Part shown: positions 336-34,843 of the stretch, one piece after another
Layout of the letters: the number at the start of each line of letters is the position of its first letter
How positions within the stretch are numbered: the stretch's first letter is position 1
NCBI GenBank assembly: GCA_013151345.1
Contig: JAADIM010000021.1
Coordinates: 1-34,926 of the forward strand
Direction: 5' to 3'
DNA from: Gammaproteobacteria bacterium
GTDB taxonomy: Bacteria > Pseudomonadota > Gammaproteobacteria > SG8-11
Length of the DNA stretch: 34,926 nucleotides
Program-made: the position numbers and the translations under genes
The notes under the pieces: model-generated
What the model was told of the DNA's origin: nothing
What the model saw: only the letters and a program-made list of their open reading frames with translations
The model's database searches: none

Positions 336-674
336 ATGCCAAAAAAGTCAGTTACCCGTACATATTCACGCTATACCCGTGAAGCACTAAAGCTTCTTGG
401 GCAGATCATTAAGCTTGGGCGGGTTGAGCGTAAACTTACTGCTCAAGACCTAGCCGACCGAGCCGGTATATCACGCGACATGCTCCAGCGCATTGAAAAA
501 GGCGATCCCAAATGTGAGATCGGCGTGGCGTTTGAGCTTGCTGCGCTTGTCGGCTTTAAGCTGTTTGATGCCGATGCTTCGTCACTGACTGGACATATCA
601 GTCAAACAGAAGGGAAGCTGGCCCTTTTACCCAAACATGTACGTAAACCAAAGGCAGTAGATGATGAGTTCTAA
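336..674 (+). CDS. hipB: HipB-like antitoxin, helix-turn-helix repressor
   Basis: A 112-residue DNA-binding protein and probable antitoxin and autorepressor of the downstream HipA kinase. A Cro/CI-type HTH occupies about residues 35-58, with LTAQDLADRAGISRDML as the two helices and RIEKG after the recognition helix. The ATG at 336 is chosen because GGAGG (325-329) lies 6 nt upstream; an in-frame TTG at 321 would sit on top of that ribosome site. The tail is basic then acidic (KHVRKPKAVDDEF), suiting a flexible segment that contacts the toxin. The gene overlaps hipA, as in other hipBA operons, and follows twin operators. Codon composition looks richer in G+C than the surrounding non-coding DNA, consistent with acquisition. 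It could be an HTH protein of a related kinase-toxin system, but the neighbour makes HipB the best call. Confidence 0.85.
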   Translation: MPKKSVTRTYSRYTREALKLLGQIIKLGRVERKLTAQDLADRAGISRDMLQRIEKGDPKCEIGVAFELAALVGFKLFDADASSLTGHISQTEGKLALLPKHVRKPKAVDDEF

Positions 675-1938
675 GCCCCCATATACCCAAGCCTTTGCCT
701 GGATTTGGCTCCCAGGCGAGACGCAGCCTGTTGTTGCGGGCAAATTGAACCTTGATGGCGACAATTTGCTTTTTAACTACGGCAAGAGCTATCTGGAACG
801 GGATAATGCCATAGCGATTTATGATGTTGAGCTGCCTCTCAAGCCGGGCGCACAAGGGCTATTGGCTGGCTTAAGTATGCCGAACTGTATTCGGGACGCC
901 GCACCCGATGCTTGGGGTCGGCGCGTATTAATCAACCGCCTTTTGGGCTTATTAAAAGGTGCTGATGCAAATAATACCACTCAACTAGATGAGCTAACGT
1001 ACTTACTGGAATCTGGCTCTGACCGTATTGGAGCACTGGATTTTCAGCACTCAGCGACTGAATACGTGCCACGCTCCCCGGTCAATGCCTCGCTGGAGGA
1101 GTTACTGGATGCTGCTGCCCTCGTTGAAAAGGGCATCCCACTCACGCCAGAGCTAGACCAAGCCCTTCACCATGGTAGTTCCATCGGTGGGGCGCGGCCC
1201 AAGGCGCTTATTGAGAACGACGATAAGAAATACATCGCCAAGTTTTCATCTTCGACCGATCTATACAGCGTGGTAAAGGCTGAGTTTATCGCCATGCGCC
1301 TGGCCACACTGATGGGGCTAGATGTTGCGTGCGTGTCAATGGAACAGGCCGCTAATAAGGATGTATTGCTGATCGAACGTTTTGACCGTGTTTATGCGCA
1401 TGACGGTTGGCAACGCAAGGCCATGGTCTCCGGCCTAACCTTACTTGGTCTAGATGAGATGATGGCCCGCTATGCCAGTTATGAAGACCTGGCCGAGATC
1501 ATTCGTCACCACTTTAGAGATGCGCCCGGAACACTGAAAGAACTGTTTTCTCGTCTTGTGTTTAATATTTTGTGCGGCAATACAGACGACCATGCCCGCA
1601 ATCATGCGGCCTTTTGGGATGGGACAATGCTCTCGCTAACACCTGCCTATGACATTTGCCCGCAAGGAAGGACCGGCAATGAGGCCACGCAAGCGATGCT
1701 GATTTCCGGTGAAAACCGGATGAGTCAGTTCACAGTTTGTTTGGATGCGGCGCAGCATTTCCTGCTATCTCGTGAAGAGGCCAGCACCATTATCAAGCAT
1801 CAAATTGCGGTGATTGAGAGCAACTGGGATGCTGTTTGCGATGAGGCAAACCTAAGTGAAACGGATCGCACCCTGTTCTGGCGGCGGCAATTCTTGAATC
1901 CGTTTGCGCTGGAAGGGTTTGCTAAAGCCAAAGAATAA
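661..1938 (+). CDS. hipA: HipA-family serine/threonine kinase toxin
   Basis: A 425-residue HipA-like kinase. In characterised systems HipA phosphorylates a tRNA synthetase (GltX in E. coli) and induces dormancy; the target here is unknown. Residues about 10-110 are the N-subdomain (Couple_hipA) with the typical DAWGRR segment. The glycine-rich loop is SSIGGARPKAL (173-183). The kinase core has IERFDR (238-243), the catalytic NTDDHARN (307-314) and metal-binding YDI (330-332). All residues expected of an active kinase are present, including serines at 173-174 where HipA autophosphorylates. ATG codons at 661 and 664 are both possible; either overlaps hipB, implying coupled translation. Length is close to the family norm of about 440. 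It lies in a mobile-element-rich region beside tRNA genes, a usual setting for acquired toxin-antitoxin pairs. Confidence 0.9.
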   Translation: MMSSKPPYTQAFAWIWLPGETQPVVAGKLNLDGDNLLFNYGKSYLERDNAIAIYDVELPLKPGAQGLLAGLSMPNCIRDAAPDAWGRRVLINRLLGLLKGADANNTTQLDELTYLLESGSDRIGALDFQHSATEYVPRSPVNASLEELLDAAALVEKGIPLTPELDQALHHGSSIGGARPKALIENDDKKYIAKFSSSTDLYSVVKAEFIAMRLATLMGLDVACVSMEQAANKDVLLIERFDRVYAHDGWQRKAMVSGLTLLGLDEMMARYASYEDLAEIIRHHFRDAPGTLKELFSRLVFNILCGNTDDHARNHAAFWDGTMLSLTPAYDICPQGRTGNEATQAMLISGENRMSQFTVCLDAAQHFLLSREEASTIIKHQIAVIESNWDAVCDEANLSETDRTLFWRRQFLNPFALEGFAKAKE

Positions 1939-2348
1939 TACCACATCCAAGGATGCCCCTTGGTCGTCATCCACTGGCGAAACAGTGGTCGTGTTTGAGC
2001 GGCGGTACGGTCACGGCATCCAACTCGGCGTACGGTTGGTCTTAATGAAATTATCGATGGGATTCCAAAGGGAGATATGAAATTCTCCCTTGCCCATGGG
2101 GGTTTTGGGGGTAGCCTGGAAGCTCCCCCGAATGGTGATTAAACGGCCAGACGTTTTGGGCATGGTTCGGTGCAGGTGGAAAAGGCCACTCTCCCAGTCC
2201 TGCGAGTGGTGAAACGGCGATACGTTTTAAGCCGGAGGGATGCAACGGGGACGCGCAGCGGGCCCCCTTGCCAAGATGGTTTTGTACGAAAATGACCACA
2301 TTTGTAGTACAAAACACATCTTGCGGTCATCCTTAATCGCACCAATAG
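1939..2348. other. Gene-free repeat-rich stretch after hipA
   Basis: Two hairpins follow the hipA stop: CCAAGG/CCTTGG (1947-1963) and CCACTG/CAGTGG (1971-1988). Neither has a T-run, so they may be mRNA-stabilising or weak terminators. The rest (about 1990-2340) has short open frames on both strands that I do not recognise. It is richer in G+C than the DNA on either side, so it probably derives from another source. I see no convincing gene. Confidence 0.4.
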
Positions 2349-2450
2349 CATGGCTATGCTGCAACCGCTCACTTCACTACCAAAGTAGATCGTGAGATTA
2401 CAGAGCGGATGACGGTGACTTTGATTTGCAATGCACTAGAGAAAATAAAT
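2349..2450 (+). pseudogene. Possible IS3-type transposase scrap
   Basis: The plus-strand frame reads KVDREITERMTVTLICNALEK (part of 2382-2444). This resembles the segment after the second catalytic Asp of IS3-family OrfB transposases, where (S/T)(E/D)RMTADLVxxAL is typical. The frame is closed by a stop at 2346 and loses similarity after about 2450, so only about 30 codons survive. No terminal inverted repeats or target duplication are visible. Recognition rests on a short motif, so the call is tentative. Confidence 0.35.
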
Positions 2451-2532
2451 CATAACGTCCAAAACACCATATTTTCCACGGGCTACTCACTGGGCTACTC
2501 AGAAGTAAAAAAATACGGACGAAAAAATATTT

Positions 2533-3147
2533 CTAAACCGGAAGCCCCAACCGTTTGAATCCGCGGATTAATGTGTCGTGGGAGACGCTGAGTTGGGTTG
2601 CTACGTGAGAGATGGGAATGTTGTTTTGTGTTACTTTTTTATGGGCGGCGTGTACGTGGTCGTCTGATAATAAGTACGGTCGTCCGAGATGTTGTCCGCG
2701 GCGTTTGGCGCTGGCCATTTTTTCTTTTGTCCGTCGGGAAATTATGGCGCGTTCGTACTCGGCCCAACTTGCGGTATCGATGAACCATTTTCGGCCTTCG
2801 GGTGTTGTTGTATCGATACATTGCGTTATTGATCTGAATTCGATGCCGTCTTTCATAAGTTCATCGAGGAATAAAATCGCTTCAATGGTTGAACGGAACG
2901 CCCGGTCGATAGCCCAGACCATAAAGACATCGCCGGTTCGTAATTTCTTGCGGGCCTTTTCCAGCCCCGGCCTGTTCTTCGCTACGGCAATGCCTTCATC
3001 CATGAAAATCCTTACGCACCCTGCGGCTTCAAGGGCATCGGTTTGAGGATCGACACTTTGCTCATCTGTAGACACACGGGCATAGCCGATTTTTTGCGAT
3101 TTTCTTGACGACACTAGGCACTGACTCTTCAAAAATGAACTCCGCAT
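2533..3147 (-). CDS. Serine resolvase/invertase, Tn3-type
   Basis: A 204-residue small serine recombinase. The catalytic domain opens with IGYARVSTDEQS, with the nucleophilic Ser at about residue 26. It continues with the conserved VWAIDRAFRS and then the E-helix segment EYERAIISRRTKEKMASAKR, followed by the hinge RGQHLGRP and a C-terminal HTH (ISHVATQLSVSHDTLIRGFKRLG). All core catalytic residues I would look for are present. Start: the ATG at 3147 has AAAAGGG upstream; a TTG at 3174 is less likely. Even so, about 18 residues precede IGYARVST, where most resolvases have one or two, so the original start may have been lost or replaced. Palindromic sites over and upstream of its start look like res subsites. 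No transposase partner is left, so it is probably a transposon leftover or a multimer-resolution gene of the island. Confidence 0.88.
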   Translation of the reverse strand: MRSSFLKSQCLVSSRKSQKIGYARVSTDEQSVDPQTDALEAAGCVRIFMDEGIAVAKNRPGLEKARKKLRTGDVFMVWAIDRAFRSTIEAILFLDELMKDGIEFRSITQCIDTTTPEGRKWFIDTASWAEYERAIISRRTKEKMASAKRRGQHLGRPYLLSDDHVHAAHKKVTQNNIPISHVATQLSVSHDTLIRGFKRLGLPV

Positions 3148-3288
3148 AAGGGAACCCTTTTGCGTACCCACCAATAAGCAGGTTTTCGCACAGATTCGCT
3201 TCCATAGTGATCATTTTTGCCGTCTTTTCAATAGATTTTGCCCTTTTTTCACCCTTATGACAATATCCGCATAACGGTTCCCTTATCC
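3141..3288. promoter_or_regulatory. Candidate res site of the adjacent resolvase
   Basis: Two related palindromes flank the resolvase start. GCATAAGGGAACCCTTTTGC (3144-3163) is a near-perfect 20-bp palindrome covering the ATG. ATAACGGTTCCCTTAT (3271-3286) is a 16-bp version, and both are preceded by TCCGC. A possible third, half-conserved copy lies around 3240-3258 (CCCTTTTTTCACCCTTATG). Tn3-family res sites have two or three such inverted subsites within about 120 bp, usually just upstream of the resolvase gene and also serving autoregulation. The repeats are seen; the function is inferred. Confidence 0.5.
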
Positions 3289-3423
3289 ATAGGTCATTGA
3301 ATATTTTGATTTTAATGGAGATTTGGGAATGACAATGTTCGTGAAACAGAGCCTTATGGCTTGTGTGACCGCCACTATATGGCGGCGGTGTTAAGCGGAT
3401 TAAGAATATTGAAGAAATCCTGA

Positions 3424-3625
3424 ATGAAAACAGTTCGAACCGCGATGGACTTTCTCGTAAGCCCTTGTAATTTATGGTATTCTGACCGGTTAGAGGACAA
3501 ACATGCAATACTGAAACTCGCTTTTACCGACCGTCTTGAGTATGTCCGAAATGAAGGACTTCGAACCGCAAATACCACCCTACCTTTCAAGGTGTTAGGA
3601 GGTCTTGCAACCTCCCAAAACAAAA
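3424..3625 (+). pseudogene. C-terminal remnant of a large serine recombinase
   Basis: An open frame of about 60 codons reads FRTAMDFL-like text (TVRTAMDFLVSPCNLWYSD), then LEDKHAILKLAFTDRLEYV and TTLPFKVLGG. This matches the C-terminal end of the large serine recombinases common in proteobacterial integrative elements, where (V/I)LKLAFADRL..R.EGxRT..T.LPFK is characteristic. The catalytic and recombinase domains are absent. The frame has no stop before running into the antisense strand of tRNA-Arg, as often happens with elements inserted at the 3' end of this tRNA. It is therefore the scar of an element once integrated beside tRNA-Arg(ACG). Identification is from remembered family patterns, not a search. 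Confidence 0.6.
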
Positions 3626-3702
3626 TGGCGCGCCCGGAGAGATTCGAACTCCCGACCGCCCGGTTCGTAGCCGGGTACTCTATCCAGCTGAGCTACGGGC
3701 GC
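3626..3702 (-). tRNA. tRNA-Arg (anticodon ACG)
   Basis: A complete 77-nt cloverleaf on the minus strand with encoded CCA. The acceptor GCGCCCG pairs with CGGGCGC, with discriminator G and then CCA at 3628-3626. The anticodon stem CCCGG/CCGGG encloses loop CTACGAA, giving ACG. The T-loop TTCGAAT and the D-arm are regular. The A at position 34 is expected to be edited to inosine by TadA, encoded at 18175-18687. The gene lies downstream of csrA and tRNA-Ser in the ancestral order, as serV-argV follows csrA in E. coli. Confidence 0.97.
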
Positions 3703-3722
3703 GCTGTTTTTAACTCTTTATC

Positions 3723-3784
3723 TATCCATGGCATTACTTTGGAGGTTCTATTTAACCCCGGCTCAAGCATCCCAGGTTGAGCGT
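3723..3784. repeat. Hairpin repeat upstream of tRNA-Arg, copy 1
   Basis: This segment is related to 6961-7020, upstream of tRNA-Ser. Both share ATCCATGGC at one end and, about 30 bp on, TAACCCC.GCTCAA..ATCC followed by GGTTGAGCG. Here the stem GCTCAA (3761-3766) / TTGAGC (3777-3782) is weaker than in the other copy. The pair may be an intergenic palindromic repeat family or a processing/termination signal between csrA and the tRNAs. Twenty bases separate it from the tRNA 5' end. Confidence 0.6.
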
Positions 3785-4056
3785 TCGCGGTATTTTACCG
3801 CTACGCAAATAAATATGGCGGAGAGAGAGAGAGGCCGTGTTTTGCCCACTTTCATCCACTCTCAGGGCCTCTTATATTCTGTCACAACCCCTTGTATTGC
3901 TAACTCTTTTTTCCAATTAGGGCTGTTAGCTGCTATCATAAATTATCAGCGATTCTCAGACTTAAACGTACCCCCACGCGTGCTCTCAAAATGCCCTAAA
4001 AAGCAGGTTTTGGGGTTTTTCGCCAAGTTCGCGATCATACACTATCAGGTAGATTT
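3785..4056. other. Gap holding left attachment repeat, no gene
   Basis: From the hairpin repeat to the integrase start I see only the left copy of the tRNA-Ser 3' end (3812-3829) and a following GA run. A short frame across the region shows no recognisable protein. Confidence 0.5.
3812..3829. repeat. Left attachment-site copy (18-bp direct repeat)
   Basis: AATATGGCGGAGAGAGAG is identical to 6756-6773, which is the CCA end and acceptor strand of tRNA-Ser(GCT) plus 4 flanking bases. After the match, the copies diverge. An orphan fragment of a tRNA 3' end about 2.9 kb from the intact tRNA, with an integrase gene between, is the usual signature of tRNA-targeted integration. Confidence 0.8.
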
Positions 4057-5398
4057 ATGGTAACACTGAGTAACAAACCGAATTCCAGCAACAAGTCTAT
4101 TAAAACAGATATGCAAATAAGGCACCTATCCAAAGTGGGCCAATTTCGCATTGACCACGGTGTCTATATTTGCATCAAAAAAAAACCGAACCGGCACCCT
4201 CTCCAAATCGTTTAAATTTCGATACGGCTTCCAAGGCGTTGATCGTTGGGAATGGCTTGGCACGTATCCCGGTTTGAGGCTTGCCGAGGCGTTGGCAGAT
4301 GGGCAAGCCCGGCGCATAAAGTATAAAAAATGGACACGTGACGGACTGGACCCTAAGCGACAAAACGAGATGACCATTGAGGCCAAGCAAAAAGCGGAAC
4401 GGCTCAATGGAGAGGGAAACAAAACATTCGCAGAATGCGCAGTAATATACCGCTGGCGCAATCGTCGCCGCTGGACCAATTGGAAAAATAAAGCACAGTG
4501 GCGAACAACACTTGCAACGTATGCCAATCCCGTTATCGGTGACATGCCTGTTAGAAACATCTCTACTAAAGACATTATCGAAGTGTTGACTCCGATCTGG
4601 AATAAAATTCCAGAAACCGCCGATCGAGTGCGCGGCAGAGTTGAGAGCGTGTTGGCGTTGGCTGGAATTCTAGGATACCGTGATGTGGACATACCGAACC
4701 CAGCTAGAAAAAGAAAACATTTAGATCAACTTTTTGCGTCTAAAGAAACGATACAGCCAACTAAAGGCCACCATGCCATTGACGGCGACGACATCCCAAA
4801 ATTTTATCAAGCAGTCCGGTCAACGCAAAGCATGCCCGTTAAGGTTCTTGCATTTGTCACAGCAGCAAATCTCCACTTAAGCGAGGCCCGATTGGCAACG
4901 TGGAACGAATTTGATTTTGAACAAGATGTTTGGGTAGTGTCAGCCAGTAGACATAAAGCAAGAAAAAATTTTGTTATACCCCTTACCGTTGAACTGAAAA
5001 ATATTTTGAATGAAGCACGACAATTGAAATACTCAGGAGCCTATATTTTCCCAGGGGAAAAACGAAACCGGCCGGTAAGCGACAGCGCTGTGTTGAGTTT
5101 AGCAAAGGAGATCAACGACGCCGAAACAACAGTCCACGGCCTGCGTAGCAGTTTTCGAGATTGGGCCGCTGACCAGACGAGCATGCCCGACAGTTTGGCG
5201 GAATTGTTGTTGTCGCACCGTGCAAAAGATAAAGTTATTCGAGCCTATTTTCGCAGCAGCATGATGGCAAAGCGTCGACTTGCATTGGAAACGTGGCAAG
5301 CCTTTTGCCGAGGTGAATCATTCGATAGTGATTTTCTAAGTAGTAAAAATGTGATATCAATTGAAGCAGTTCGCGGGACGAGCCCACAATCAGGCTAA
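4057..5398 (+). pseudogene. P4-type tyrosine integrase, frameshifted, Arg lost
   Basis: The long frame 4151-5398 (from a TTG) encodes most of a P4-family integrase: the DUF4102-like arm-binding end (FKFRYGFQG..W..LGTYPGL), core-binding domain, and catalytic domain with HGLR (329-332), LLSHR (H356) and nucleophile Tyr366. The missing N-terminus lies one frame over: an ATG at 4057 opens a frame ending DHGVYICIKKK, the expected text before the long frame. The two join at an A9 run (4177-4185), so one extra A disrupts the gene. In addition, the first catalytic Arg (RxGE in the family) is His242 (HLSE; codon CAC at 4874-4876), one transition from CGC. Either change alone would probably stop recombination. 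Counted from 4057, about 446 codons, a normal family length. The gene lies just inside the left attachment repeat. Confidence 0.85.
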
Positions 5399-15960: not shown

Positions 15961-16644
15961 GTGTTTGTCGCTGTTTTAGAGGATGATGAATATCAAGCCA
16001 AAGTTATTTCGCTTTTCCTTGAATCGGCACAACATACTTTTGAAATATTTGGAAGTGGTGAAGCGTATATTGACAGTATTCAAAAAAAGAACTTTGATTT
16101 GCTCATTCTAGACTGGGAACTACCGGATACAACTGGAATTGAAATACTAAAATGGATACGCACCTATTTGGGATGGAATAAACCGGTTCTATTTATGACG
16201 GTACGTGATAGCAAAGAAGATATCGTTACCGCACTTGAACATGGCGCTGACGACTATATGGTGAAACCGGTAGATCGACATGAGTTTTTAGCACGTATAA
16301 ATACCTTGGTGAGGCGCGTTACCTCCAACAGAAAGCACGTCGATAAAATTGAATATGGTGGCTTTATTATCTACAAAAGCGAACGGAAAATTTCGCATAG
16401 TGGGTCAGTACTCAATTTGACGCCAAAAGAATATGAACTTGCCACGTTATTGTTTGAAAGCGAAGGGCGACTGCTGCCTAGACTAGAAATCCTTAAAACG
16501 GTCTGGGGCATCCAAGCTGAAATAAATACGCGCACGGTAGATACCCATATTAGCCGAATTCGAAAAAAGCTTGCACTTGAACCGAAAAATGGCTGGAAAT
16601 TATCCTCCATTTACCATCATGGTTACCGCTTGGAACGCGTGTGA
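15961..16644 (+). CDS. OmpR/PhoB-family response regulator
   Basis: A two-component transcription factor of 227 residues. The receiver domain (1-115) has the acidic pair Asp8/Asp9, phospho-acceptor Asp51 (LILDWELPD), switch Thr80 and Lys102 (VKP). The C-terminal winged helix (about 130-225) has LTPKEYELATLLFES and RTVDTHISRIRKKL. Start is GTG at 15961 with GAGGG upstream. No histidine kinase gene is adjacent, so it is an orphan in this window. The stop is 22 nt before mltF, indicating one transcript and a possible link to envelope stress or peptidoglycan sensing. An HDOD gene is divergent. Specific targets are not deducible. Confidence 0.92.
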   Translation: MFVAVLEDDEYQAKVISLFLESAQHTFEIFGSGEAYIDSIQKKNFDLLILDWELPDTTGIEILKWIRTYLGWNKPVLFMTVRDSKEDIVTALEHGADDYMVKPVDRHEFLARINTLVRRVTSNRKHVDKIEYGGFIIYKSERKISHSGSVLNLTPKEYELATLLFESEGRLLPRLEILKTVWGIQAEINTRTVDTHISRIRKKLALEPKNGWKLSSIYHHGYRLERV

Positions 16645-16666
16645 AAATAGCCTAGGAGCGCTTCTG

Positions 16667-18076
16667 ATGAGGATAATTCTATATTTACCGCTACTGGTAC
16701 TTATTATAAGTGCTTCCATTGCCGGATGCTCTGATAACACCCCTCTTCTCGAAAAAGTCAAAAAAGAAGGCGAACTGATTATTGTCACGCGCAATAGTCC
16801 TACTACTTACTACCTTAACGCTGACGGTCCTGCGGGCTTTGAATACGACCTGGCGAAATTATTTGCAGATGAACTAGGTGTTACGCTGAAAGTAACAACA
16901 CCAGATAGCCTTACTGATATTTTCCCAATTATTACCTCCGGAGAGGCACATTTTGCTGCCGCCGGATTAACGGTCACAGAAAAAAGAAAGGAATGGGTAC
17001 GATTTGGTCCTGTGTATCAAAATATTCATGAACAGGTCATCTATCATAAAGAAAATCCGCGGCCAAAAGATATAAATGAACTTGGTGACGGCTTGCTTGA
17101 GGTTGTATCGGGTAGCAGCCATGTTGAACAACTTGAAAAATTAAAAACCAGTTTTAAAAATCTCACCTGGTATGAAAATGATGAACTAGAAAGTGAAGAA
17201 TTACTGGCACTCGTTTGGGAACAAGTAATCGACTACACCATTGCTGATTCCAACGAAGTCGCATTAAACCAGCGATTTTATCCTGAACTAAAAATAGCAT
17301 TCGATTTGTCTAAACCACAATCACTTGCTTGGGCTTTCCCGCTTAGTAACGACACCTCGCTTTATGACGCTGCCACAGCTTTTTTTGAAAAAATCCAACA
17401 AAATGGCGAATTAAAAAATATCACCGCTCGATATTATGGAAGTGTCAAAACACTGAGCACCGGCAGCCGTCGATCGTTTGCGATACATTTTAACGAACGC
17501 TTTCCACGCTACCGTAAAATGTATGAAGCAGTCGCCGAAGAAAACGATTTAGACTGGCGCTTACTCGCAGCCATTGGCTATCAGGAATCGCACTGGAACC
17601 CCCTCGCAGTATCGCCAACAGGTGTCCGTGGAATTATGATGCTTACACGCGATACTGCAAAATACCTGGGTGTAAAAGATCGCGTCGACCCGATGCAAAG
17701 TATTGAAGGCGGTGCACGTTATTTTGCACAATTAAGAAATTCAATCGCCACGCATATCCAAGAACCGGCACGCACCTGGTTCGCTATTGCGTCCTACAAC
17801 ATTGGCCCTGGACACGTTATAGATGCTCAAATTATTACAGAAAAACGCGGCCTTGATCCTGATAAATGGCTTGACGTAAAACAAAGTTTGCCGCTTTTGC
17901 AAAAAGAGAAATGGTATAAAAATACTAAATATGGATATGCCCGTGGAAACGAGGCCATGCGATATGTCGCAAATGTGCGAACATACTACGATTTCCTCAC
18001 TTGGATAATAAGTCAGGAAGAAACTGACGAAGAAAAAAACAACGAAGCAATCAACCTCGATTCTCTGGCTTTATAG
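16667..18076 (+). CDS. mltF: Membrane-bound lytic transglycosylase F
   Basis: An outer-membrane lipoprotein that cleaves peptidoglycan to 1,6-anhydro-muropeptides. The signal MRIILYLPLLVLIISASIAGC has a lipobox ending at Cys21. Residues about 35-260 form an ABC-type solute-binding (SBP_bac_3) domain (IIVTRNSPTTYYL, FEYDLAKLFADELGV). The C-terminal SLT domain has catalytic Glu307 (IGYQESHWNP), then SPTGVRGIMMLT and GARYFAQL. AGGAG 8 nt before the ATG at 16667 fixes the start; an upstream in-frame ATG at 16571 lies inside the regulator gene and would bury the signal peptide. 469 residues is normal. It ends convergent with tadA; mltF beside tadA is conserved in gammaproteobacteria (yfhD-tadA in E. 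coli). Here it follows a response regulator, which is less usual. Confidence 0.94.
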   Translation: MRIILYLPLLVLIISASIAGCSDNTPLLEKVKKEGELIIVTRNSPTTYYLNADGPAGFEYDLAKLFADELGVTLKVTTPDSLTDIFPIITSGEAHFAAAGLTVTEKRKEWVRFGPVYQNIHEQVIYHKENPRPKDINELGDGLLEVVSGSSHVEQLEKLKTSFKNLTWYENDELESEELLALVWEQVIDYTIADSNEVALNQRFYPELKIAFDLSKPQSLAWAFPLSNDTSLYDAATAFFEKIQQNGELKNITARYYGSVKTLSTGSRRSFAIHFNERFPRYRKMYEAVAEENDLDWRLLAAIGYQESHWNPLAVSPTGVRGIMMLTRDTAKYLGVKDRVDPMQSIEGGARYFAQLRNSIATHIQEPARTWFAIASYNIGPGHVIDAQIITEKRGLDPDKWLDVKQSLPLLQKEKWYKNTKYGYARGNEAMRYVANVRTYYDFLTWIISQEETDEEKNNEAINLDSLAL

Positions 18077-24958: not shown

Positions 24959-25837
24959 CTACGTACTTTTTTCCACAAGATGACGCAACGGGGTCGCCAG
25001 CGAGATATTCATCTGTTTTGAGGTTTTTAATATCTCCTCCCTGAAGTATTGCCGTGTTGCGATTATGCCCTTAACATTTTTTGTATAATAATAAACGCAC
25101 CATTCAACCGCATGATCACCGGTTTCAACGATGCCGATCTCGATTGGGTATTGAGATTCAATATCGGTATTTTCTATTTTTGTCGCAATTTCAAAAGCCG
25201 CCTGAAACATCTTCCTGACGTTCGTCTCATCTTCAGCATAATCTATTTTAAAATGTAACTGCTCACGCAAGCCTTTTGCTGATGCAAATTTTGAAAGATT
25301 ATGAATTGTTTGTTCGCGCAAACGCGCATTTTTGATCATTATTCGATGATTATTTATCAAATTCAGGATTTCGGTATGAAACACTTTAGTTTTATATACC
25401 ACACCGAGCGTTCTATCTCCGTCGTTAAATTCGATTACATCGCCCACTTCCACCATGCTGCTATTGAGAATAATAAGCCCACTAAACATATCCGGCGCCC
25501 AGGTATTTTGTGTTAACGCCAGAAAAACGCCCACAATACCCACTGCACCACCCACCTCAAGCAAACTATCAAACCCAAGGAATCGAATAATTGAAACAAA
25601 CGCAATTATGAATACAAACGCAGAGGCAAAAATACTGAACAAACGCGAATTATACGTCTCGATCGGTTGACTTACGCCTTCGATCTCACGCGTTTTTCCA
25701 TAACGCCGTCGAATGAAATACTGTAACAAGTGCAATCCGGCATAACTGAGATACAGAACCACAATGATTGCCATAACCGTGTAGCCCAAGCCTTTACTAC
25801 TTTCCACCGTGTACATGTGGTAATACGTAAACGCCAC
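24959..25837 (-). CDS. MscS-type mechanosensitive channel, N-terminus frameshifted
   Basis: A 292-residue channel protein, start GTG at 25837 by default. Membrane segments: GYTVMAIIVVLYLSYAGLHL, LFSIFASAFVFIIAFVSII, and the pore helix GGAVGIVGVFLALTQNTWA. The MscS beta domain (VGDVIEFNDGDRTLGVVYKT) and the C-terminal alpha/beta domain follow. The frame stays open upstream to about 25887 with another hydrophobic segment (VFRAFNLLIIVAFTYYH). A further membrane helix lies in a second frame up to about 26031, joinable by one extra base near 25880. The real gene was therefore probably 24959 to about 26001. If the frameshift is real, the channel lacks its first helices. It is convergent with the M23 gene and divergent from the redox operon. 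MscS-like channels usually relieve osmotic stress; ion selectivity cannot be read. Confidence 0.82.
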   Translation of the reverse strand: MAFTYYHMYTVESSKGLGYTVMAIIVVLYLSYAGLHLLQYFIRRRYGKTREIEGVSQPIETYNSRLFSIFASAFVFIIAFVSIIRFLGFDSLLEVGGAVGIVGVFLALTQNTWAPDMFSGLIILNSSMVEVGDVIEFNDGDRTLGVVYKTKVFHTEILNLINNHRIMIKNARLREQTIHNLSKFASAKGLREQLHFKIDYAEDETNVRKMFQAAFEIATKIENTDIESQYPIEIGIVETGDHAVEWCVYYYTKNVKGIIATRQYFREEILKTSKQMNISLATPLRHLVEKST

Positions 25838-26231: not shown

Positions 26232-27839
26232 TTGGAAATACCAGACTTGAAAATACCGAACTTAGTACCAAACATATCACCAAACAGATCACCAAACATA
26301 GAGTTGGGCACGTTGCCCCCCTGCCCGGTCGCACCCGATGCGCTGCAGGGAATTCCCCGACAACAAACAAATCCGGCTCGCTGGCAGGGTGAGAATTGGA
26401 ATGAATTCGTATCTACATTGCAAGCAGATAATATTGACGTCATAGAAGACCGCGGAACACGAGGAATATATAGCACAGATGCAGGTGGGCTCGCTTATGG
26501 CATGCCTAATGGTGTCATCATAGCCCGGGATGCCCAACAAATATCAACTCTGTTGCGAAATGCCCAGCGATACCATATCCCCGTCACAGTGCGCGGTGGT
26601 GGCTTAACAACAGAAGGCGAATCAGTCGCATTTGGCGGTGTTCTGTTAGACATGACTGGCATGAGTCGAGTTCTACATATCGATAAAGATACGTTGACTG
26701 TGCGCACTGAAGCTGGCATTTTTTGGCACAGCCTGGCAGAAGAACTTCGGCGACATAATTTCGACTATCTATCTGCGCCACTCAACCTGACGTCATCCGT
26801 TGGCGGCACGCTGGGCGTCGGTGGTATCGATGTCAATTCAGCAAAACTGGGTTGCAGCGCTGACCAGGCGCTTTGCTTACAAGTCGTTACCCCAACGGGG
26901 GACATTATTGAATGTTCGGATGAACAAAATGCTGAATTATTTCAACGCGTCATTCTAGGGTACGGTCAATTCGGCATTATTACCGAAGCAACACTAAAGA
27001 TACGTCCCTTTACGCCTATGCGTATGCATTATTTTTATTATCGTTCACTGCGTAGCGCAATCAATGACTTGATCCTGCTTGATCAAAATGGTGTACCTGA
27101 TTACAGCGGCATTCTCACTATGATGGACAAAGCTGTCACATTACTCATCGCTTTTGATTCAGCGGAACGTGAAAAAACATTCTTTGAACAGTGGCACAAA
27201 CAATTACATGGTTATGGTGAACTGGGTTTTGGAATCCGGCTGGCAAGCTACTATGCTTTGCATCCCTGGCGCTTGAATGAATTGTTTTTCTTATTACGAC
27301 GCAAACACACTCTCTTTCCTGACTTGCAGCCTGCTCAACATATGCGTAACGGTGAAATCATTGACCGTACTGTAGTATTTTCCCGTGCCGTGTGGAAACA
27401 CTGGGGACACAAAAATATGGTCATCCCGGATCTTGCTACCAGCGTTGACAAATTTATCGATGCCGTCGAAAAAGGCAACGCAGTTTGCAAACATTATTTC
27501 CCGCGCTACACGTTATATTGCGTTGGCATCAAGCTGCGCGCTGAACACAAGGCACATTATGAATTATCCAGTATACCTCATGATGCCAAAGACTTTAGCT
27601 ACGGTTGTGAATTTGAGCCGATACTCGAGGAAAATAATTATAGCCGCGATTATCTGCAGTCATTTAAAAATGCGATCTACGACATTGGTGTTGACATGGA
27701 TACCAGTTATTATCGTTTTGGGGGCATGATGAAAGCTTACATTCGCCGTGCGCTGGGCGACGAAGTAGTGGAAAAGCATTTAGCGTTGAAACGTATCGCA
27801 GACCCTGCCATGATATTAAATCGAAATGTCATATTCTGA
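26232..27839 (+). CDS. FAD-linked oxidoreductase, cytokinin-oxidase-like
   Basis: About 535 residues with a PCMH-type FAD domain: GIYSTDAGG, PNGVIIARDAQQISTLLRNA, VTVRGGGLTTEGESV, then SSVGGTLGVGGID and GYGQFGIITEATLKIRP. The last two are close to plant cytokinin dehydrogenases (VGGTLS..GI, GGLGQFGIIT). The C-terminal substrate domain ends LALKRIADPAMILNRNVIF, as in alditol and DHCR24-type oxidases. At the usual covalent-FAD site (GxGHS) it has GGGLT, so the His is Leu and FAD is probably non-covalent. The start is unsure: TTG 26232 is first, but the following codons include a 12-bp tandem repeat, and TTG 26304 is possible. It overlaps the next gene by 14 nt. By analogy with GlcD-GlcF it may pass electrons to the neighbouring Fe-S protein. 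Substrate unknown. Confidence 0.85.
   Translation: MEIPDLKIPNLVPNISPNRSPNIELGTLPPCPVAPDALQGIPRQQTNPARWQGENWNEFVSTLQADNIDVIEDRGTRGIYSTDAGGLAYGMPNGVIIARDAQQISTLLRNAQRYHIPVTVRGGGLTTEGESVAFGGVLLDMTGMSRVLHIDKDTLTVRTEAGIFWHSLAEELRRHNFDYLSAPLNLTSSVGGTLGVGGIDVNSAKLGCSADQALCLQVVTPTGDIIECSDEQNAELFQRVILGYGQFGIITEATLKIRPFTPMRMHYFYYRSLRSAINDLILLDQNGVPDYSGILTMMDKAVTLLIAFDSAEREKTFFEQWHKQLHGYGELGFGIRLASYYALHPWRLNELFFLLRRKHTLFPDLQPAQHMRNGEIIDRTVVFSRAVWKHWGHKNMVIPDLATSVDKFIDAVEKGNAVCKHYFPRYTLYCVGIKLRAEHKAHYELSSIPHDAKDFSYGCEFEPILEENNYSRDYLQSFKNAIYDIGVDMDTSYYRFGGMMKAYIRRALGDEVVEKHLALKRIADPAMILNRNVIF
26267..26302. repeat. 12-bp tandem repeat at start of flavoprotein gene
   Basis: ACCAAACATATC, ACCAAACAGATC and ACCAAACATAGA run head to tail, giving PNIS-PNRS-PNIE if translated. 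This low-complexity run precedes the first conserved protein text, so it may be leader RNA rather than coding. Confidence 0.75.
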
Positions 27840-28812
27840 TAATATTAATAATTCGAATAAAAACTTCAATTATTGCCACGGTTGTGGTTTGTGTACTCTG
27901 GTCTGCCCCGCATGGCAACAACAAAAAGACGTCCGTGTTTCCCCCCAGGGTCATGCAAAAGCACTACAATACGGTGGCAAAATCAAAGCTGAAGCATTAT
28001 TTAGTTGTATTCTCTGCGGCGCCTGTTCAGCAATTTGTCCGGAAAATATTGATTTAACAACGATGTTGCTTGACTTGAGACAACAATCAGAAAAAACGCC
28101 TGCTCAACAAACAATTGAAAACGATTTGCTGCAATTAATAAAATTAAAACACGAACAGAAATTCAGCCAACCTCCTATCAACAAAACCGTATTTCTGCCA
28201 GGCCCAGAGTTACGTAGCAACCAGTCTTACCTGTCTCACATCATGCAACTTTTAAACAATCGCTACGATATCGCTATCGCAGGCGATGATGGCTACGATA
28301 TAAGTATGGCACTGGAAGCCGGTGTTGAAATACCTGCGCACAGACTTGATAGTTTTTTGCAACCAATACGATTTAGTATCAAACTTATTGTTAGCGATGG
28401 TTTATTAATACAAAAACTGCATCACTGGTTACCGTATACCAAGATCAACTCGACAGGATACGAACTCAGTCAATTGCCGCAGATACGTGAGCACATTAAA
28501 GATTCTGATTTTTATGTAATTGAAAGCCGCGCATACCATTGCAACTTTGAGAAAAATGTTTCTCACTACGACAAGCTGCAACGAGAACAATTTTGCCAAT
28601 TCAATCTAGATTTAAATCGATTGGCTATTCCCACAGGGGCTGTCAGCAATGAAAAATTACGTACAGCCGAATGTTTCAACACAACTAAACAGGCCGAATG
28701 GATGTTGTCAAATAAACAGTTCGCTCGTATCATTGTAGAAGATATGAAAGATCTCGCCTTATTATCCAAAATAAGTGACAAACCGGTCTTGCACCTCGCG
28801 GAACTAAATTAA
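27826..28812 (+). CDS. Two-cluster 4Fe-4S protein with degenerate C-terminus
   Basis: A 328-residue electron-transfer protein. Two ferredoxin motifs lie near the N-terminus: CHGCGLCTLVCP (17-28) and CILCGACSAICP (about 61-72), each CxxCxxCxxxCP, predicted to bind two 4Fe-4S clusters. This layout matches GlcF/GlpC/HdrD-type proteins, which continue with cysteine-rich CCG domains. Here the remainder (about 110-328) has the length and strand-helix look of that region (KTVFLPGPELRSN) but lacks the CCG cysteines; only scattered Cys remain. It should therefore work as a plain electron carrier. Its ATG lies inside the end of the flavoprotein gene and its TAA shares a base with the next ATG, so the three genes are translationally coupled. 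The protein as a whole is not recognised. Confidence 0.85.
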   Translation: MSYSDNINNSNKNFNYCHGCGLCTLVCPAWQQQKDVRVSPQGHAKALQYGGKIKAEALFSCILCGACSAICPENIDLTTMLLDLRQQSEKTPAQQTIENDLLQLIKLKHEQKFSQPPINKTVFLPGPELRSNQSYLSHIMQLLNNRYDIAIAGDDGYDISMALEAGVEIPAHRLDSFLQPIRFSIKLIVSDGLLIQKLHHWLPYTKINSTGYELSQLPQIREHIKDSDFYVIESRAYHCNFEKNVSHYDKLQREQFCQFNLDLNRLAIPTGAVSNEKLRTAECFNTTKQAEWMLSNKQFARIIVEDMKDLALLSKISDKPVLHLAELN

Positions 28813-30026
28813 TGCGATCAGTCGATGTTATCATTGTTGGCGCCAGCCTTGCTGCAGCCGCTGCTGCAAAACGCCTAGTCGATGCTGGGCTTGAAACCGT
28901 CATACTTGAAAGACAGGAATTACCTCGCCATAAAATTTGCAGCGGTATTTTATCGCCGCGCGGTTATCGTTTTTTAATTGAAAACTTTGGCCCGCTTCCG
29001 AAAAAAGCACTACACGATCCAACTTGGTGTCGCGGCGTCACATTTCATTTTCCATGTTTGATTCCCATGCCGATGGATTTTTTTGGTGGCACCACACCCC
29101 ATTTACACCGTAAATATTCCGACTATTGGGCGATTAAACGTAGCGCAGCGGAAGTAATGGATAAAACGTCACTGGTAGGATTGGATGACCAGGGAACACG
29201 CGTGGTCGTAACAGCACGCCAACAAAGCGGTGAAACAATAAAAATGGCGGCACGCTACGTTATTGGTGCAGATGGGCCCAGTTCTGCAGTACGCAAGGCA
29301 ATCTACCCGGAATACACCAAGCAAATTCCTTGGTTTTTCGTTGGGCAAAAATTTCATGAAATCATTGATTGCCCGCTTGATGAAGAATATTTTCATTTCT
29401 GGTTTCATCCAGAGTTAGGACATTACACATGGAGCCATGCGCGTGATGGACGACAAATAGTCGGTGTGGGCTTCAAACAGGGTGATAATTTTAATCAACG
29501 CCATCTTCATGTGACCGCTTACCTTGAAGAAAAACATGGCGTTAAACTCAAACCGGCTGACCCGGACCATGAAGGCTGCGCAGAAAATTTTGGGCCATCG
29601 TTAATAAACAAATATATTTTTGGAAAAGATAATGTATTACTCACCGGCCAAAGCACTGGATTTCTCAACATGATCGGTGAGGGCATGAGTTGCGCACTAC
29701 ACTCCGGTGCGATCGCAGGTGAATCCATCGTTGAATCAATTTGCCGAAACCAGCCAGTACAAACTGTTTATCGACAAATGATTTCATCCGAAGTTCGCCG
29801 TACTACGGATCAATGGAACCCGCTAATGATTGCATTTGGACGCCCGCACGAAGCCGATTTTCCCAAAGCACTTATGGCACTATCAAGACAAGACCGCATA
29901 AAAGTATTAAAAGATATCTGGCGATTTTTACTACTCTACAAAGAATTTCGCTGGGGAAGACAACTCGCTTATAGTAGTCTACAACGTATTCTCCGTGGAA
30001 AATACCTGAGCCAGCGCTGGTTGTAA
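28812..30026 (+). CDS. Geranylgeranyl-reductase-family FAD oxidoreductase
   Basis: A 404-residue flavoprotein. Family signs: N-terminal Rossmann fold (VDVIIVGASLAAAAAAKRL), then PRHKICSGILSPRG where GGR proteins have P..K.CGG, YVIGADGPSSAVRK, and the FAD-ribityl region LLTGQSTGFLNMIGEGMSCA. Two FAD motifs deviate: the dinucleotide loop GxGxxG reads GASLAA, and the usual GD(A/S)AG reads GQSTG. It may hold FAD unusually or be repurposed. GGR enzymes reduce isoprenoid double bonds with ferredoxin or NADPH; some relatives are hydroxylases or halogenases. The upstream Fe-S protein is a natural electron donor, and the ATG overlaps its stop. Substrate cannot be told; a prenyl, quinone or sterol-like lipid is a guess. 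Confidence 0.82.
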   Translation: MRSVDVIIVGASLAAAAAAKRLVDAGLETVILERQELPRHKICSGILSPRGYRFLIENFGPLPKKALHDPTWCRGVTFHFPCLIPMPMDFFGGTTPHLHRKYSDYWAIKRSAAEVMDKTSLVGLDDQGTRVVVTARQQSGETIKMAARYVIGADGPSSAVRKAIYPEYTKQIPWFFVGQKFHEIIDCPLDEEYFHFWFHPELGHYTWSHARDGRQIVGVGFKQGDNFNQRHLHVTAYLEEKHGVKLKPADPDHEGCAENFGPSLINKYIFGKDNVLLTGQSTGFLNMIGEGMSCALHSGAIAGESIVESICRNQPVQTVYRQMISSEVRRTTDQWNPLMIAFGRPHEADFPKALMALSRQDRIKVLKDIWRFLLLYKEFRWGRQLAYSSLQRILRGKYLSQRWL

Positions 30027-30135: not shown

Positions 30136-32373
30136 CTAGCGACGCTTTCCTTGTCCGGATGGGCTTCCTGGTTTTTGAATTTGCACAGATTTAGCTGCTA
30201 TTTTCTTTGACGATTTCTTTTTTGTATCGTCACTTGCTACGGATTTAAATTGATGTGTACGTTGCGTTCTAAAAATGCGCTTTTTAGCTGTGGCGTCTCC
30301 TTTTGCATATTTACCCGTGTCTGCTGGCTGCCATGCCGGAATCAGGTGTTTTTTACCATTGCCGATTAAATCTTCTCGCCCCATGCGTTTTAACGCCTCT
30401 CGCAATAGTGGCCAGTTTTCTGCATCGTGGTATCGTAAAAATGCCTTGTGCAAACGTCTCACTTTAATACCTTTCGGTATTGTAACATTTTCACTTTCGC
30501 GTGTTACTTTTCGTAATGGATTTTTTCCGCTGTGATACATCGCCGTTGCGGTCGCCATAGGTGATGGTAAAAAAGCCTGTACCTGGTCAGCACGAAAGCC
30601 ATTTTTCTTTAACCACAATGCAAGTTCCAACATATCTTCATCCGTGGTGCCCGGGTGCGCCGCGATAAAATAGGGGATCAAATACTGTTCTTTCCCTGCT
30701 TCTTTTGAATACTTTTCAAATAACTCTTTGAATTTATCGTAAACACCAATGCCTGGCTTCATCATTTTACCCAGAACACCAGGTTGCACATGTTCCGGTG
30801 CAATTTTAAGATAACCACCTACATGATGGGTCACCAACTCTTTTACATAGCTTGGCGACGTAACGGCTAAATCATAACGTAACCCTGACGCGACCAGCAC
30901 TTTCTTAACGCCTTTAAGTTCTCGCGCCCGGCGATAAAGTTTAATGAGTGATGAATGGTCGGTATTGAGATTCTTACAAATACCTGGATATACGCATGAC
31001 AAAAGACGACACGCACTTTCTATTTCAGGGCTCTTACAGGCTAGCCGGTACATATTCGCCGTTGGCCCACCTAAGTCGGATATGATGCCGGTAAAACCGG
31101 GAACTTCATCGCGAATAGTTTCTATTTCACGAATAATCGAATCTTCAGAACGGTTTTGTATAACCCGCCCTTCATGTTCGGTAATAGAGCAAAACGTGCA
31201 GCCACCAAAACAACCCCGCATTATCGTTATTGAAAAACGAATCATTTCATACGCTGGAATGTTCGCACCACCATAAACCGGATGTGGTACACGCGTATAA
31301 GGTAATTCATAAACGCCATCCATTTCTTTTGTGGTTAATGGAATGGGTGGCGGATTAATCCATATATCACGCTTTCCATGGCGCTGTCTTAACGCTCTTG
31401 CATTACCCGGGTTAGACTCTACATGCAGTATCCGTGAAGCATGCGCATACAGCACTTCGTCAGATTTTATTTGTTCGTATGAAGGTAGTCGAATAACTGT
31501 TCGAGTTCGATCTAACTTTGCTGCTCGTTGATTTTTTCCGCGAAAAAAAGGCACAACTACTTCACCTGCCTTTGAATTTATTTCTTTATTGCATGACTGA
31601 CTTTTATCGCTGTTAGTACTTTCATCACCCATAGAATAGGGGTCAACTTTCGGCTCAATATGTCCGGGAGAATCTACATCGGTCGAATCAATTTCACTCC
31701 AGCCTTCAGGCAAACCTTCTCTGAAAAAAGCAGTTCCGCGCACGTCCGTGATATCCGTCGGTTTTTCACCCGCTGCCAAGCGATGTGCAATTTCTACGAT
31801 TTGGCGCTCCGCATTTCCGTAAACCAACATATCCGCTTTGCTATCAATCAATATCGACCGACGAACTTTATCGGACCAATAGTCGTAATGTGCGATGCGA
31901 CGTAAACTTGCTTCGATACCGCCTACAATAATTGGTACGTCTTTAAATGCTTCTCTAGCACGTTGCACATAAACAATAACGGAACGATCAGGTCGCTGCC
32001 CCCCGGCTCCGTCTGCCGTATACGCATCATTACTACGAATTCGTCGATCTGCCGTGTAACGATTCACCATTGAATCCATGTTACCCGCAGTCACACCCAT
32101 AAATAAATTCGGCCTGCCCAAAACAGTAAAAGCCTCAGCGCTTTGCCAGTCTGGTTGGGAAATAATTCCAACACGAAAACCTTGTGCCTCAAGTAATCGA
32201 CCGACCAACGCCATACCAAAACTTGGGTGATCCACGTAGGCATCGCCTGTGACCAGAATGATGTCACAGCTATCCCACCCCAGATCATCCATTTCTGCAC
32301 GAGACATGGGTAATACTGGGGTAGTACCAAAACGCTTGGCCCAGTAAGGCTTATAAGAGAAAAGTGTTTGCAT
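30136..32373 (-). CDS. ygiQ: YgiQ family radical SAM protein
   Basis: 745 residues, the normal length of this UPF0313 family. The N-terminal domain ([53 protein letters not shown]) precedes the radical SAM core with the cluster motif [18 protein letters not shown] (CxxxCxxC). It continues with [35 protein letters not shown] and [19 protein letters not shown]. The C-terminal tail (about 690-745) is Lys/Ser-rich and disordered. The reaction is unknown although the protein is widely conserved. A poorly conserved, Ser/Asn-rich insert lies around 240-275. It is convergent with the redox operon and divergent from the small gene at 32721. Confidence 0.96.
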
Positions 32374-33424: not shown

Positions 33425-33602
33425 AACCTAAATAAATCAGTTGGATCTACTGCGGGTGCCTAATGTGCTGAAGATAGCGTGTTTTTCCATTTTTTAAGAC
33501 TCACCCGTAGAGTGACTACGCGATCGCCTTAAAAAATGAAAAAACACGCTATCTTCAGCACATTAGACCCCCTCGTGACGATCCAACTGATTTATTTAGG
33601 TT
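33425..33602. repeat. 178-bp nested palindrome
   Basis: Three nested inverted repeats share one centre at about 33513: outer 23-bp perfect arms (33425-33447 with 33580-33602), inner 39-bp arms with one mismatch (33460-33498 with 33528-33566), and an apical 5-bp stem CGTAG/CTACG (33506-33520). Interior loops are about 12-13 bp and 7 bp. The right outer arm contains the subtilase stop codon (33596-33598). The inner arms carry T6/A6 runs. It lies between convergent genes, so it could end both transcripts, but it is far longer than any normal terminator. Confidence 0.95.
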
Positions 33603-34843
33603 AAACGGGCTGTCAACATAGCAATAAGAAACGTCAATAAAGACAATAGGTCAAGCATTCCACCACCACCAACCTGACTTGAGTCGTTAACAATAATTCT
33701 ATCGACGTCTCCAATCGATGATTCAGGTGGCGTAGACGCTGGGTAATCCTGTGATAGACCAATAGCCGCTTCCGCGTCAATTAAGCCATATCCACTATCA
33801 AAATCGAAGTCGGTACCGGTGTCAGTTTTTGCATCATCGTTACGCTGCAAAATATCAATGGATGTACGATGCAGTATCTGCTGGATATCAACTGCTTGTA
33901 ATTCAGGGTTGATTTCTAATAATAGAGCCACCACGCCCGCAGCATGTGGGGCGGCAGCTGAAGTACCTGAAATATTAGGCATACCGTCATCGTCTGTATC
34001 CACTCCAAAAAATGTCGTATTGACATCGTCAGGAGCAACAACATCAGGTTTTTTTGCAACAAATGGATTGCTTAGAACGGCTCCATTCAAATCGAACACC
34101 AAGGGGGTCCCACCTGCGGAGGAGAAAATTTCTAGCAAGGGTGGGGACGTGCCAAATACAGGTGTTTCAACATAATTTGCCGCACCTACCGTCAAAGCAG
34201 ATTCTGAATTCGCATGCCCAAATAGCGCGCTGCTGTCTGTCTGAAATTCCTGAATAATGCCCTCGAAACTGTTAAGGATGATGTATTTCAACAAATCAGG
34301 TGATTTTCCACTTGATTTTGTAATCATAAGGTCAAATTTGGTTTGGCCTGAGTTTTCCGGATTGAAAAATAAAAGAACTTCAACCGGGTCTCTGCCAATA
34401 TTTCCAAATGTGGATGATGCCAGAATTTTCGTATGCGTTTCATTAAAAATAAAAATATCAAGGTCAGTTTGTGTTCCTGGCGGCCCGCTTATTGAATAGG
34501 CCGGGGAATCCCATTGAAGTAGCAGTTGAAACCCGAGTCCTTCCGGGACAGCAATACGCTGGTAAATATCAATACCGGGACCACGATCAAAATCATGCGC
34601 ACTAAGTTGGAAAGCTGTATTGATATATTCGCTATAGGGGCTTTGGTATGAATCTCGCCCACTGTTACCCGCTGCGGTCACGTAGACAACACCTGCACGA
34701 ACAACTCTGTCTACAGCTTGTGAAATAGCATCTTTTTGAAAAAAATTTGCAGAGAGGAATTTAACATCGTCAACGATAATATCGACTTTATATTTAAATG
34801 GCAGTTCCAAGATGGCATTTGCTGCATTCGCAAGACAGGGCAA
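33596..34843 (-). pseudogene. Subtilisin-family peptidase, 5'-truncated, GlyGly-CTERM-like tail
   Basis: 415 codons of an S8 peptidase. It has the oxyanion Asn60 (VTAAGNSG) and catalytic Ser295 (ISGTSAAAPHAAGVVALL) but begins after the Asp and His regions. Just upstream the frame hits a stop (TAA near 34850), and none of the three frames to the window end reads as subtilase, so the 5' part is deleted or displaced. VDIIVDDVKFL and QKDAISQAVDRVVRAG are normal text for the segment after the catalytic His. A beta domain (about 85-200) is inserted between Asn and Ser. The C-terminus has GGGG (392-395), a hydrophobic stretch (MLDLLSLLTFLIAML) and TAR, a GlyGly-CTERM-like signal handled by rhombosortase in related bacteria. 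As read, the product cannot be an active protease. Confidence 0.85.

Follow-up and report, generated by a model that had tools for sequence, protein, structure and literature searches.

A three-gene operon encoding a PCMH flavoprotein, a two-cubane iron-sulphur protein and a GGR-family flavoprotein, conserved in three proteobacterial classes

Three overlapping genes of a gammaproteobacterial contig, hereafter g1, g2, and g3, form a true functional unit that is evolutionarily fixed and otherwise stand-alone. As judged from sequence and models, two flavoprotein folds flank a two-cubane iron-sulphur protein. The trio may constitute one dedicated redox module, in which electrons passing from g1 to g2 to g3 would reduce a C=C bond in a prenyl chain, a tentative reading that we hold at slightly less than even confidence. 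Its role seems to be undescribed so far: the first-pass annotation knew the combination as no described system, and the literature search likewise returned no paper describing the trio. It is also unmentioned in the passages retrieved from the twisted-stalk and Gallionellaceae pan-genome papers.

Operon layout and conservation

The operon occupies positions 26232-30026 of the window, the whole stretch of 34,926 nucleotides that was analyzed, and the ORF list places all three genes on the plus strand:

g1, 26232..27839, plus strand: PCMH/VAO-type FAD flavoprotein of 535 residues with a TTG start and a non-covalent FAD site
g2, 27826..28812, plus strand: two-[4Fe-4S] protein of 328 residues with a cluster-less CCG/HdrB-like tail
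g3, 28812..30026, plus strand: GGR-family (CbrA-like) flavoprotein of 404 residues

The ORF coordinates agree with the overlaps reported at first reading, of 14 nt between g1 and g2 (27826-27839) and of 1 nt between g2 and g3 (TAATG at 28810-28814). The TTG start of g1 is backed by a conserved E-I-P just after it in several homologues. Among homologous loci, the g2 start commonly lies at -1 relative to the g1 stop, and g2 and g3 often overlap.

This operon is no chance assembly, because g1, g2, and g3 occur in the same order and on the same strand in 70/80 orthologous loci, drawn from 80 genomes retrieved across the Gamma-, Beta-, and Zetaproteobacteria. In 369 Gammaproteobacteria genomes, g2 and g3 are found in an identical set of nine (Fisher p 3e-18). 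Out of 78 Zetaproteobacteria, 17 carry both g1 and g3, 57 carry neither, and 2+2 carry only one of them (p 4e-13), the latter all being incomplete MAGs. Some Thiotrichaceae keep all three genes though scattered, on different contigs in two genomes (G036 and G180). The first-pass annotation had held that homologues usually lying apart in other genomes would speak against a coupled system; linkage across distant taxa, near-perfect co-occurrence, and retention when unlinked are found instead.

The distance matrices of the g1, g2, and g3 proteins are correlated pairwise with r 0.86-0.90, a congruence also expected from ordinary vertical co-inheritance. It would fit three functionally unrelated genes inherited together as a stable genomic block, an explanation that appears highly improbable: the presence of the trio is patchy even inside genera, yet its genes are gained or lost jointly, they are retained when unlinked, and the flanking genes are not conserved. 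Indeed, the flanks of the orthologous loci contain no recurrent neighbor beyond the trio, other clusters being shadow ORFs or rare, and no isoprenoid, cell-wall, ETF, ferredoxin reductase, or sterol gene recurs there. The plasmid search returned no close g1 or g3.

Folds and motifs of the three proteins

The g1 protein, whose orthologues are 65-77% identical, possesses a PCMH domain (PF01565 FAD_binding_4, 96.3 bits against a cut-off of 26.4 bits, 1.6e-27). As anticipated at first reading, its flavin-attachment site is devoid of the covalent His and reads GGGLTTEGE in 47/47 homologues. Such a loss is not unusual, GlcD-type enzymes normally lacking this residue. The top PDB profile matches are LctD and cytokinin dehydrogenases, and Foldseek analysis of the AF2 model reports CKX and D-lactate dehydrogenases as leading hits (TM about 0.6) within a mixed set of folds. 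A GlcD-type (2-hydroxyacid) substrate is unlikely for g1, as judged from its sequence, since the HxGDGNxH-type metal/substrate motif is absent (H.GDG in 0/47 homologues) and the C-terminal domain is not assigned to FAD-oxidase_C (PF02913, 13.7 bits, below the cut-off of 21.2). Oxidation by g1 is no more than putative, given the moderate confidence of its model (pLDDT 74.5) and the variety of its nearest folds; the PCMH fold is also found in MurB, a reductase, and in AGPS, a redox-neutral enzyme. A Delta-24 steroid desaturase of Sterolibacterium was considered and set aside, being a limonene-dehydrogenase-like enzyme of another type that carries FMN covalently bound to a His.

The g2 protein matches the Fer4 dicluster in the Pfam profile search and comprises two cluster-binding motifs:

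27874..27906, plus strand: first [4Fe-4S] motif CxxCxxCxxxC (C17, C20, C23, C27), invariant in 45/45 homologues
28006..28038, plus strand: second [4Fe-4S] motif CxxCxxCxxxC (C61, C64, C67, C71), invariant in 45/45 homologues

The loss of the CCG cysteines noticed at first reading extends to the family, in which the tail conserves none of them among 45 homologues and retains only C257 (41/45). Pfam returns no CCG domain for g2, and its tail alone has no significant sequence match to CCG. The assignment of a CCG-fold tail comes instead from the predicted fold (AF2 model, pLDDT 94) and from end-to-end colinearity with GlcF-type proteins (HHalign, prob 99, 318 columns). Foldseek analysis reports EtfD 9ojn as the best match (E 1.9e-6, TMq 0.63), while the resemblance to HdrB is weaker (TM about 0.4, weak E-value). 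Both sequence and model thus depict g2 as a GlcF/EtfD/HdrBC plan stripped of its CCG clusters. Having kept all eight ferredoxin cysteines but none of the CCG cluster cysteines, g2 would suit electron relay between flavoproteins better than quinone reduction of the GlcF type.

The g3 protein, whose orthologues are 71-80% identical, was described at first reading as a GGR-family flavoprotein with changed FAD motifs, and both parts of this description hold. It covers positions 2-297 out of 297 of the TIGR02032 GG-red profile with 92.9 bits, which is under the curated cut-off of 158.8, and it aligns to 3oz2 over 1-324 in the PDB profile search. It scores 76 bits with PRK11445 (CbrA). Two segments relate it to these enzymes:

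28923..28964, plus strand: active-site-type segment P38-RHKICSGILSPR-G51, with C43 at the position of the catalytic Cys (CGG) in GGR and CbrA
29421..29441, plus strand: H204-Y-T-W-S-H-A210, in place of the GGR YxWxFP motif and aligned to YSWSISKDG of CbrA

C43, aligned to KPCGGLL of CbrA, is invariant (59/59 homologues), as are Y205, W207, and H209, while FP is replaced by HA in all 59. The GxGxxG motif has become GASLAA (GxGxxG in 0/59 homologues) and LxGD has become LTGQ, with Gln in place of Asp in 59/59. Given these three altered motifs and a TIGR02032 score below the cut-off, activity of g3 cannot be assumed.

The g3 protein also returns an FAD_binding_3 match in the Pfam search, and its best PDB profile matches include the halogenases PltA and ChlB4, as would be expected of a hydroxylating, epoxidising, or halogenating flavoprotein that uses the electrons of g2 for something other than C=C reduction. 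Such an activity is improbable: the halogenase WxWxIP motif (searched as WxWxI) is found in 0/59 homologues, the Cys of CbrA and GGR is invariant, and g3 scores higher with the GGR and CbrA models than with those of monooxygenases.

Alternatively, the trio might be a respiratory dehydrogenase in which g1 oxidises, g2 relays, and a FixC/ETF-QO-like g3 reduces a membrane quinone, with no lipid being saturated. The g1-g2 pair resembles GlcD-GlcF and EtfD-type chains, many hosts look lithotrophic, and g3 belongs to a wider flavoprotein clan with FixC, a weak and partial hit in the PDB profile search (E 4e-4). We nevertheless consider this explanation unlikely. A closer kinship of g3 with FixC/ETF-QO than with the GGR family is not supported by the family HMM (75 bits for CbrA versus 27 for FixC), g3 retains both the GGR Cys and Y-x-W and is devoid of the ETF-QO [4Fe-4S] domain, and g2 no longer has the CCG clusters that EtfD employs. 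No ETF gene recurs nearby, and a membrane quinone reductase is further argued against because none of g1, g2, and g3 contains a 19-residue segment above 1.7 on the Kyte-Doolittle scale.

A candidate electron path and related systems

If we assume instead that the trio is a prenyl-saturating module, g1 (PCMH/VAO type) would oxidise an organic compound, probably a hydrophobic one resembling an alcohol or amine. The electrons released would travel via the two cubanes of g2, which would act as a wire of two clusters lodged between the flavins of g1 and g3, to the FAD of g3, and this CbrA-like GGR-family reductase would then saturate the double bond. The absence of an isoprenoid or cell-wall gene beside the trio speaks against this reading. 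Such a path had been put forward in the first-pass annotation; its conserved operon has been borne out, and the path is plausible, although we infer its direction and both substrates. The accompanying analogy with GlcD-GlcF stands for the GlcF/EtfD-like architecture of g2 and fails for a GlcD-like substrate of g1. In GlcD-GlcF/LutB/EtfD-type chains, a PCMH flavoprotein (GlcD) similarly adjoins a protein made of an N-terminal dicluster and a CCG fold (GlcF). In contrast, the ligands of the CCG clusters are missing from g2, g1 has neither the metal/substrate motif nor the C-terminal domain of GlcD, and the last gene of the operon encodes a GGR-family protein.

Regarding the substrate of g3, a polyprenyl carrier lipid or similar isoprenoid is the likeliest type by analogy, because its best-scoring named relative, E. 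coli CbrA, is reported in the review PMC8469651 to saturate the alpha-isoprene of undecaprenyl phosphate (C55-P). The two proteins align over ~300 residues, though they are only distant relatives, and share the catalytic-type Cys, the Y-x-W-S motif, and an altered LxGD (GE in CbrA, GQ in g3). However, CbrA comprises 354 residues and its gene has no g1/g2-like partners beside it, whereas g3 has a further conserved stretch at its C-terminus and comes with two redox partners of its own. To our knowledge, CbrA does not need such partners. A variant that appears quite unlikely is a redox-neutral lipid saturation, in which a lipid alcohol oxidised by g1, possibly the same molecule, would pay via g2 for the prenyl saturation by g3. 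If true, lithotrophic Proteobacteria could convert an allylic polyprenol into a saturated dolichol-like form without drawing on NADPH or free ferredoxin.

A general cellular ferredoxin could also feed g2, with g1 and g3 both acting as reductases, one after the other, in a single pathway of lipids or isoprenoids. GGR enzymes can accept electrons from ferredoxin, and PCMH-fold reductases such as MurB exist. This reading is nonetheless fairly unlikely, as g2 is no small free ferredoxin and its GlcF/EtfD-like scaffold is the one seen in proteins that partner PCMH or ETF dehydrogenases, and no ferredoxin reductase gene recurs nearby. In its favor, archaeal GGR paralogues often adjoin ferredoxin genes; in loci such as those of Saci_0316 and Ta0326, the adjacent genes encode ferredoxin or ETF (PMC10821996). 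As in the trio, a GGR-family flavoprotein is there genetically tied to an electron-supply protein; these loci differ in belonging to another sequence subfamily, in having no PCMH flavoprotein reported in the text consulted, and in that g2 is no simple ferredoxin. Saci_0316 was rejected as an instance of the same trio, being described as a FixC-superfamily protein with no PCMH partner shown. Another related system is Bsr, a bacterial sterol C-24 reductase of the GGR family with an active-site Cys and YxWxFP that reduces an isoprenoid side-chain double bond (PMC12004948). Bsr resides in sterol clusters, whereas the trio has no recurrent sterol neighbors and g3 carries YTWSHA in place of YxWxFP.

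Hosts and biological meaning

The trio is hosted by scores of sulphur- and iron-oxidising bacteria, e.g., Mariprofundus, Gallionella, Sulfuritalea, and Thiotrichaceae. A dsrA gene is present in 20/36 sampled Beta/Gamma hosts but in none of the Zeta hosts, which rules it out as a shared host trait, and RuBisCO is enriched (27/36 sampled Beta/Gamma hosts versus 15/44, p 3e-4) but falls short of universal. This patchy mix therefore indicates no single pathway. Squalene/phytoene synthase is uninformative as a marker in Zetaproteobacteria, since it is nearly universal there (68/78).

As a rule, enzymes of the GGR family require electrons of low potential, and their bacterial donor is mostly unknown. 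Here the GGR-family protein is invariably tied to a putative iron-sulphur wire and to another flavoprotein, so that co-expressing the three genes would put the donor question to the test. The operon also marks a trait common to iron and sulphur oxidisers of environmental importance.

The three-gene unit and its distribution

The trio genes (g1, g2, and g3) and their neighbours are arranged as follows:
24959-25837, upstream, divergent: MS-channel family gene
26232-27839, + strand: g1, PCMH flavoprotein
27826-28812, + strand: g2, two-[4Fe-4S] protein with a tail
28812-30026, + strand: g3, GGR-family flavoprotein
30136-32373, downstream, convergent: radical-SAM protein gene

ORF calls in the window bear out the three positions of the first-pass annotation, together with its overlaps of 14 nt (g1/g2) and 1 nt (g2/g3). 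Since the upstream gene is divergent and the downstream one convergent, the transcription unit can hold only g1, g2, and g3. Promoter-like matches around the trio do not exceed chance and terminator-like matches in its region lie inside genes; therefore, neither was used as evidence.

Four features, named by reading the sequence without a family search, likely form a mobile region (661-5398):
661-1938: HipA-like kinase ORF
2533-3174: serine recombinase
3626-3702: tRNA-Arg
4151-5398: phage-type integrase

Also named by eye are a response regulator overlapping a solute-binding and lytic transglycosylase (MltF-like) ORF (15961-18076), and an S8 subtilisin-like protease ORF whose C terminus may carry a membrane anchor (33596-34843).

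A g3 profile scan of GTDB genomes returned 137 relatives, the best 80 of which (~71-80% identical, in Gamma-, Beta-, and Zetaproteobacteria) were used for loci. The persistence of the trio across distant taxa, proposed earlier as a check, is observed: g1-g2-g3 occur in order and on the same strand at 70 of these 80 loci, the others being contig ends or split sets. In a 13-genome set made up of controls and most exceptions, 11 genomes encode g1 and 12 encode g2, on a separate contig in some cases; two Thiotrichaceae genomes (G036 and G180) each carry the genes on three contigs. Within 369 Gammaproteobacteria, g2 and g3 occupy the identical 9 genomes, and of 78 Zetaproteobacteria, 17 possess both g1 and g3, 57 neither, and 2+2 a single one, the latter all being incomplete MAGs (Fisher p of 3e-18 and 4e-13, respectively, both overstated as genomes are non-independent). 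No recurrent neighbour gene accompanies the trio in the fetched loci. Mean identity reaches 77% for g1 and 82% for g3 and drops to 50% for g2, the pattern one would predict if g1 and g3 are enzymes that bind substrates and g2 links them.

The g1 and g2 proteins

Pfam profile search assigns g1 a PCMH FAD domain (PF01565, 96 bits). The flavin-attachment histidine, already reported missing, is absent from all 47 aligned homologues (GGGLTTEGE). The closest solved structures by profile are LctD and cytokinin dehydrogenases, and the AF2 model (pLDDT 74.5) matches the same mixture (TM ~0.6). A glycolate- or lactate-like substrate is unlikely from these profiles and motifs, because FAD-oxidase_C falls below the Pfam cut-off in the C-terminal half and none of the 47 homologues has the 2-hydroxyacid dehydrogenase metal motif H.GDG.

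The g2 protein contains two CxxCxxCxxxC motifs, invariant in 45/45 homologues. Its AF2 model, graded excellent (pLDDT 94), returns mycobacterial EtfD as the sole PDB match below E 0.001 (TMq 0.63), HdrB following further down with a weak E-value. HHalign matches g2 over its whole length to GlcF-type proteins encoded in related genomes (probability 99, 318 columns); the tail alone gives no significant match. In EtfD, nine cysteines and one histidine of the CCG domains ligate two clusters, one a linear [3Fe-4S] and the other a noncubane [4Fe-4S] (PMC13083937), whereas g2 has kept two cubane motifs and lost the CCG ligands: as first noticed, no CCG cysteine is conserved among the 45 homologues, C257 (41/45) being the sole conserved tail cysteine. 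In Mariprofundus-type g2 (~210-236 aa; loci L037, L040, L044, L048, L066, L079, and L087), the tail has lost its first CCG-like half and keeps the second (FH...HYD.LR...GCxMNLDL), so that only the second half seems indispensable. Therefore, g2 is a GlcF/EtfD-type scaffold reduced to two cubanes. As this reduction removes what such proteins have beyond cubanes, g3 is favoured over quinone as acceptor, and a quinone-linked chain, to which the GlcF/EtfD kinship might point, is unlikely, although it is one of the two main rival readings.

The g3 protein and a proposed electron relay

The g3 protein scores 92.9 bits against the GGR family model TIGR02032, under its curated 158.8, 76 against the CbrA model, and 68.5 against BchP-ChlP; a profile of 59 orthologues gives 75 bits to E. 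coli CbrA and 27 to FixC. CbrA is described as acting on undecaprenyl phosphate and on lipids I and II, whose alpha-isoprene unit it saturates (PMC8469651). C43, at the GGR catalytic cysteine position, and Y205-x-W207 are invariant in orthologues. The altered FAD motifs seen at first reading (LxGD to LTGQ, GxGxxG to GASLAA) recur in all or nearly all of them, as does HA in place of FP in YxWxFP; being fixed in the family, these changes do not reflect decay of a single copy.

A distant relative (27.6% identity, 5e-25), the better of just two plasmid matches, lies on the Subdoligranulum variabile plasmid OY725846.1 (locus L204, 5935-6972; gut Clostridium). It shares similar KSCSGIL and GEAAGFLNPMGEG motifs and stands alone, flanked by carboxylesterase and beta-glucosidase.

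In the best-supported reading, the g1 substrate would give electrons to the g1 FAD, from which they would pass to the two g2 cubanes, then to the g3 FAD, and finally to a prenyl-type double bond; the three proteins may form a complex. Established here are the three-gene unit, its protein folds, both cluster motifs, the missing CCG ligands, and the relationship to CbrA, whereas complex formation, electron direction, and the two substrates are inferred. The closest context seen in the literature, archaeal GGR paralogues adjoining ferredoxin or ETF genes (PMC10821996), recalls a ferredoxin-fed pair of reductases, the other main rival reading, which we consider unlikely. A text search restricted to 5.39 million open-access papers, and thus weak evidence of absence, returned no description of the g1-g2-g3 combination. 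Each component is of a known kind; what is new is that the three are combined in a fixed unit and that g2 is stripped of its CCG ligands.

Hosts of the trio

RuBisCO is encoded by 27/36 Beta/Gamma hosts versus 15/44 non-hosts, and dsrA by 20/36 hosts, neither being universal; hosts are mostly lithotrophs. One of two RuBisCO large-subunit copies in one scanned genome (G209:C65:74276-75199) has two in-frame stops (one TGA, one TAG). The window's genome is among those encoding dsrA, over the family cut-off (G000:C5:17669-18871), hence its host is probably a sulphur oxidiser. Since presence of the trio is patchy even within genera, the trait it encodes is accessory.
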